Of a DNA stretch of 12,038 nt, positions 11,001-12,038 are shown piece after piece; the stretch's first letter is position 1; each line of letters begins with the position of its first letter. Below the pieces are notes generated by a model. That model ran no database searches. It had not been told where the DNA came from and saw only the letters and a program-made list of their open reading frames with translations. Both the position numbers and the translations under genes were made by a program. This DNA comes from Candidatus Desantisiibacteriota bacterium (lineage in GTDB: Bacteria > JACRDZ01), in contig JACQWU010000228.1 of assembly GCA_016209155.1 (NCBI GenBank), forward strand, positions 1-12,038, read 5' to 3'.

Positions 11001-12038
11001 ATTAAGAATTTCTGAAGATCCGGAATTAAAAGATGCCCAGTGGATTGATTACAAATCCGAATTAGAATTTATTTTATCAGCTAATGATGGAATTAAAAAA
11101 GTGTATTTTGAATTTAAAGATAAAAATCAAAATATATCAAATCCCAGAATTGTAAATATATCTCTTGATCAAATAAAACCATCTATTGAAAAATTTGATT
11201 GTCCGGAAAAAATAAAAATCAATGATTTGTTTAAAATAATTATTCACTTTAATGAAGAAGTTATCCCTAAAAAACCTTTAATAATACTTATGACTAAAGA
11301 AGGTGTAAGCTCTTCAATTGTGAATGACGGGATATTTCAAAGCGATAAAGTCAAAAATGATATTTATATAACACCGGAAATATCTCTTGATGAAAGCATG
11401 CAAGGTACGATTACTATCATAGTTGATAACGAGATGGAAAATAAAGGGCATAAAAGGAATGTAAAATATATATTTATAACAGGAGGAGTTGTATCTTCTC
11501 TGGGGAAAGGTATTGCTGCCGCTTCTATCGGGTGTTTACTGGAAAGCCGCGGGATTAAAATATCTTTAATGAAATTTGATCCATACATAAATGTTGATCC
11601 CGGAACAATGAATCCATTTCAGCACGGTGAAGTATTTGTTACTGATGATGGAGCTGAAACTGACCTCGATTTAGGCCATTATGAACGTTTTACACATGCT
11701 AAACTTACCAGAAATAACAATGTAACAACCGGACAAATTTATTACTCAGTAATTAACAAGGAACGGCGCGGCGACTATCTTGGGGGAACAGTACAGGTGA
11801 TCCCTCACATTACGGATGAAATTAAAAGCAGAGTAATTAAAGTCGCGGAAGAATCTATGGCAGATGTTGTGATTGTTGAGATTGGCGGCACAGTCGGAGA
11901 TATAGAGAGTCTGCCTTTTATGGAGGCTATCAGGCAGTTTAAATATGAAGTGGGTAGAAACAATGTTATATATGTACATCTTACTCTTGTTCCGTTTATT
12001 AAAGCAGCGGGTGAGATTAAAACAAAACCAACACAGCA
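5056..12038 (+). CDS. Giant secreted 15-heme cytochrome / Ig-like / beta-helix protein, open in frame into PyrG
   Basis: The frame has no stop from 5056 to the window end (more than 2,300 codons). Residues 1-23 are a Sec signal peptide ([13 protein letters not shown] core, likely cleaved after FPA). Fifteen CXXCH c-type heme sites follow, at residues 42, 76, 113, 151, 181, 233, 287, 325, 355, 402, 542, 580, 615, 671 and 710. A heme-free insert occupies about 420-525. About 736-835 is an Ig-like domain ([24 protein letters not shown]). About 928-1025 resembles an S-layer-type domain ([15 protein letters not shown]). About 1036-1115 is a single Ig-like unit. About 1124-1435 is a right-handed beta-helix with short repeats such as [10 protein letters not shown] and a terminal NWWG. 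From about 1450 come composite Ig-like repeats, the last cut off near 2125, where CTP synthase begins. Predicted role: periplasmic or cell-surface electron transfer and binding; the substrate is unknown. The fused PyrG end is probably not part of the functional secreted protein. Confidence 0.85.
5281..7197 (+). repeat. Repeated four-heme cytochrome module
   Basis: Within the giant protein the heme sites recur in a fixed order. First comes an LPLF/MPLY stretch, then C-x-TCH followed by NVHQW or NIHQW. Next is NSFLRI/NSFLNM with ELCxNCH or a relative, then HDL, then CSACH followed by xVHN, then a lone CxxCH with a later HP. Modules start at 5281, 5752, 6259 and 7066. The first lacks the NVHQW form (IYHPKD instead), the third is lengthened by an insert, and the fourth stops after two hemes. 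The first heme (CNICH, 5179) matches the module's closing position. The pattern shows internal duplication of a tetraheme unit; extra conserved histidines (HQW, VHN, HDL, HP) are plausible distal heme ligands. Confidence 0.75.
9403..11433 (+). repeat. Composite Ig-like protein repeat of about 195 residues, last copy truncated
   Basis: The signature D-(K/R/Q)-x-xPP/KP recurs with its D codon at 9403, 9988, 10582 and 11167, giving periods of 585, 594 and 585 bp. Each unit has a first half with xFxIxFNExM, LPxITL, NDTYIxP and EGxIxVxIENVQDxTGN. Its second half contains ISEDPxFxDxxW, LSxGEGxKxIYxxFKDK and the closing D-x-TPP. An isolated second-half copy also precedes the beta-helix (about 8206-8400). 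The fourth unit ends after its IIVDN strand at about 11433, where CTP synthase sequence takes over. Such repeats usually form elongated stalks of beta-sandwich domains on exported proteins. Confidence 0.8.
11434..12038 (+). CDS. pyrG: CTP synthase, N-terminal part, in frame with upstream cytochrome
   Basis: CTP synthase makes CTP from UTP, ATP and glutamine in the cytosol. About 201 codons of its N-terminal synthase domain are present and the rest, including the glutaminase domain, lies beyond the window. [20 protein letters not shown] (residues 11-30 from this ATG) is the P-loop signature. [48 protein letters not shown] and [11 protein letters not shown] are the family's nearly invariant substrate- and magnesium-binding blocks. 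The ATG at 11434 is the only in-frame ATG near the conserved start and gives a plausible nine-residue leader. However, only a weak GAG precedes it, and there is no stop between it and the giant upstream frame. The enzyme sequence itself looks intact and under constraint, so it is presumably made from this internal start. Confidence 0.88.

Follow-up and report, generated by a model that had tools for sequence, protein, structure and literature searches.

The open reading frame that carries a secreted multiheme cytochrome into the CTP synthase gene pyrG is, judged from sequence, very probably an assembly artefact. The cytochrome/PyrG fusion is most likely not a real feature, and no claim of a secreted-cytochrome/CTP-synthase fusion is warranted from this contig. 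The window analysed here is an entire contig (C156, 12,038 bp) from a draft bin (G000) that comprises 3.08 Mb in 352 contigs and is estimated to be 78.8% complete. Since many comparable joins break conserved genes elsewhere in the bin, the junction is most likely one more false join, and the whole draft genome should be flagged: odd fusions, truncations and frameshifts in it need reads or a second assembly before they are believed.

A cytochrome frame that continues into pyrG

The frame at 5056..12036 (+) is free of stops over about 2,330 codons (2,327 counted) and reaches the window end, as the sequence-only reading had described. That reading had also located the in-frame passage from cytochrome to PyrG correctly: the cytochrome segment TITIIVDN ends at 11430, an ATG follows at 11434-11436, and from 11464 (residue 2137) the sequence is that of the conserved PyrG core. 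The large multiheme c-type cytochrome, devoid of its C-terminus, occupies 5056..11430 (+), as delineated by the open frame, Pfam matches, the CxxCH count and alignment to a paralogue on contig C295 and to same-phylum homologues. It comprises a hydrophobic N-terminus, CxxCH motifs, Ig-like repeats and a NosD-like right-handed beta-helix. Pfam matches paired CXXCH and cytochrome c domains in this part, and the multiheme cytochrome, NosD and beta-helix domains all lie N-terminal of CTP_synth_N in the long frame. Fifteen CxxCH motifs fall within residues 42-714 (the last at residue 710) and, together with a signal peptide-like N-terminus judged by eye, identify the protein as a multiheme c-type cytochrome. 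A dnaX-like gene, named from its own sequence without a database search, is divergent from the cytochrome gene at 3234..4727 (-), and a bacterial small SRP RNA (RF00169, 71.6 bits) lies between the two at 4777..4875 (-), just upstream of dnaX.

Residues 2137-2327 match CTP_synth_N (PF06418) with an E-value of 7.5e-100 over profile positions 1-191 of 265, identifying a CTP synthase (PyrG). The fragment (11434..12038, +) has the N-terminal synthase domain in common with other PyrG proteins, here over about 200 codons. Because the window is a whole contig, pyrG is truncated by the contig end, which falls at 12038 within the synthase domain, before the C-terminal glutamine amidotransferase domain and only about 600 bases from the junction. 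The fragment is the sole pyrG match in the bin: a second pyrG, a possibility raised by the sequence-only reading, was not found there, and a full-length PyrG query against the bin found no other pieces of PyrG.

The start of the fragment differs from that of a usual PyrG in being fused in frame to unrelated sequence and in having no ribosome-binding site. From the cytochrome repeat to the PyrG core, the ATG at 11434 is the only in-frame ATG, GTG or TTG, and no Shine-Dalgarno-like motif lies upstream of it; such motifs were seen with 56% of long ATG-initiated open frames sampled from the bin versus 12% of control stretches. The missing motif fits, if weakly, a loss of the native upstream region. 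The stretch NEMENKGHK looks like a PyrG leader and also like KNEMELKMDK of the cytochrome repeat. Because it also aligns to the cytochrome repeat, the probable false join can be placed no more finely than about 11427-11463 (+), between the end of cytochrome homology at or after VDN (11430) and the beginning of PyrG homology at 11464. The same 12-mer, ATGGAAAATAAA, stands at the cytochrome start (5056-5067) and at the putative pyrG start (11434-11445), with 0.04 such repeats expected by chance, and is possibly a coincidence of two MENK starts.

The cytochrome ends within a repeat

The C295 paralogue shares about 50% identity with the window cytochrome along most of its length and 56% towards the end. 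The alignment reaches TITIIVD, after which the paralogue runs on for about 215 further codons to its own stop, so the window cytochrome is without its C-terminus and the two partners are not both complete at the junction. The window copy breaks off within a repeat that the paralogue has whole, which supports the earlier proposal that the end of the cytochrome gene has been lost. A candidate for the missing tail, contig C57, starts with Ig-like sequence and was rejected when its frame was found to lead to a TolB-like beta-propeller protein.

The bin's paralogues are themselves interrupted. The cytochromes on C295 and C141 each carry a loss of about 140-150 nt (L007 4585; L079 5670-5679): about 46 codons are missing out of frame at ITILVENV in the former and about 50, also out of frame, in the latter. 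The C295 break sits just after an ITI.VEN/VDN motif, the same motif as at the pyrG junction. Contig C336 contains a run of N inside a cytochrome. At window position 8128 (residue about 1025) the window cytochrome is 38 codons shorter than its C295 paralogue, in frame, with the end of one Ig-like repeat absent; the difference may be natural or reflect a further collapsed join.

Relatives keep the two genes apart

In three genomes of the same phylum (G001-G003) the cytochrome homologues are unfused, with open frames of 2,149-2,849 aa. They have the same domain order and repeat types as the window copy, which differs in lacking the C-terminal repeats and running into PyrG. In these genomes pyrG lies on contigs other than those of the cytochromes, with hldE- or kdsB-like neighbours where checked, in G002 and G001. 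The pyrG open frame measures 528-647 aa in 55 of 60 genomes with a pyrG match, versus about 2,330 here. The sequence-only reading had suggested that relatives be searched for the same junction; it was found neither in the 55 genomes with a pyrG match nor in the cytochrome homologues of G001-G003, and thus the conservation that would mark a genuine fusion or polyprotein is not seen. The native pyrG neighbourhood was also sought through kdsB. The bin's kdsB, on contig C90, has no pyrG next to it, and this route did not recover the true neighbour of pyrG.

Broken genes across the bin

The breaks seen on C295, C141 and C90 led to a systematic test of the bin, in which 672 kb of G000, roughly one fifth of the bin, served for comparison with proteins encoded in 1.06 Mb of G001 and G003. 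Six of 123 comparable G000 genes (33,832 aligned residues) are broken inside contigs. Controls gave no breaks, with 0/105 in the reverse comparison and 0/52 and 0/60 between two relatives; by aligned length, all six would fall on the G000 side with a probability of about 0.002. G000 thus shows an excess of comparable breaks over its relatives. Five of the broken genes miss 140, 101, 112, 103 and 385 nt net, out of frame. These genes encode the magnesium P-type ATPase MgtA and RadC (L125 13839 and 17495), RtcB (L218 7840), glucose-1-phosphate cytidylyltransferase (L086 8815) and PPDK (L133 1550), the last with about 130 residues missing mid-contig and no second full copy in the bin. The sixth, an unnamed gene (L123 7349), carries an exact 28-nt tandem duplication. 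We considered tandem duplications as a general mark of end-to-end joining and set this idea aside, as only this one clear case was seen and there was no overall excess over relatives.

A companion test for truncated ends found five of 57 G000 genes cut at one end inside a contig, compared with one of 48 in the reverse direction; it is the weaker of the two tests because the controls between relatives gave 0/32 and three flags in 36 genes. The genes so cut include pheS, whose only copy in the bin has lost 53 N-terminal residues mid-contig (L166 14574). Some of the broken genes could be true pseudogenes; this reading is disfavoured by the presence among them of pheS, an essential gene in sole copy.

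The break rate amounts to about 6 in every 100 kb of coding sequence compared, at which roughly half a break or more would be expected per 12-kb contig, and a join of the type seen in the window would be ordinary. Among the sampled conserved-gene breaks there is no in-frame fusion of two full genes, a point that counts against a misjoin. The nearest parallel is found on C90 (L042), where a YgiQ-family radical SAM frame at 1428-3380 (-) continues in frame into a secreted-type protein. The YgiQ part matches profile positions 228-556 of 558, its N-terminal part being missing mid-contig, and this frame is a probable second false join.

Origin of the junction

We infer that the junction shares its cause with the other breaks in the bin. 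The assembly would often have brought together, with no gap marked, sequences whose proper spacing is about 100-400 bases or more. At this site the join would have cost the cytochrome gene its 3' end and stop codon and pyrG its upstream DNA, with the frames on either side matching by chance, a one-in-three event. In the organism, cytochrome and pyrG would most likely be separate genes with separate products. A point against such a misjoin is its size: if the lost tail equals that of the C295 paralogue, the loss would be about 650 nt or more, exceeding the 100-385 nt seen elsewhere. The pattern is otherwise that of misjoins and collapsed gaps in metagenome assemblies, with no Ns, frame-shifting internal losses, contigs ending mid-gene and sporadic, unrelated loci. 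Gap closing, low coverage or chimeric reads may have caused the joins. Nothing specific on misassemblies of this type in metagenomes emerged from a literature search.

The sequence-only reading had offered either a deletion or a chimeric assembly. The assembly alternative is strengthened because many conserved genes without relation to one another carry false-looking joins in this bin and not in its relatives; the deletion gained no support. It is unlikely that a real chromosomal deletion took away the 3' end of the cytochrome gene together with the region upstream of pyrG, so that translation of PyrG would start internally at ATG 11434 on a transcript begun ahead of or within the cytochrome gene. 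In favour of such a deletion, the window pyrG is the only one in the bin, but a bin that is about 79% complete may simply miss sequence. The start at ATG 11434 is plausible in that its leader is close in length to MVKKKYNGVKYIF of G002, but it lacks the Shine-Dalgarno-like motif found with 56% of bin open frames (12% of controls), and many like joins in the bin disrupt unrelated conserved genes, the sole pheS among them. We consider it distinctly improbable that a recent real deletion in the lineage left an essential cytosolic enzyme to be made by internal initiation inside a secreted-cytochrome frame, and the earlier proposal that pyrG depends on transcription through 6 kb after such an event found no backing.

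A binning or cross-species chimera, with pyrG derived from another organism in the sample, is very unlikely. Chimeric joins do occur in the bin, but the PyrG fragment is 77% identical to PyrG of G002, has its best match by E-value in G002, and groups with this same-phylum genome in the tree with support of 94/83, just under the usual cut-off. The tree does not favour a foreign origin, and the grouping with G002 suggests that the join was probably made within one lineage and not with foreign DNA. Finally, a genuine fusion protein, or a polyprotein from which a secreted cytochrome and a cytosolic CTP synthase are released, is scarcely credible even though the frame is open throughout. A signal peptide-like start and heme motifs mark the cytochrome, whereas PyrG is a cytosolic enzyme; no relative carries the fusion; and the cytochrome breaks off partway through a repeat that the C295 paralogue has whole. 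The sequence-only reading was right to call a dual-role product implausible, and its processed-polyprotein option gained nothing.

Giant cytochromes of the phylum

In this small phylum there are several giant secreted multiheme cytochromes (G001:C83, G001:C40, G003:C12, G002:C1 and G002:C235; L080-L084), at least some of which contain a beta-helix and Ig-like repeats. These proteins are a real feature, perhaps of more interest than the fusion.
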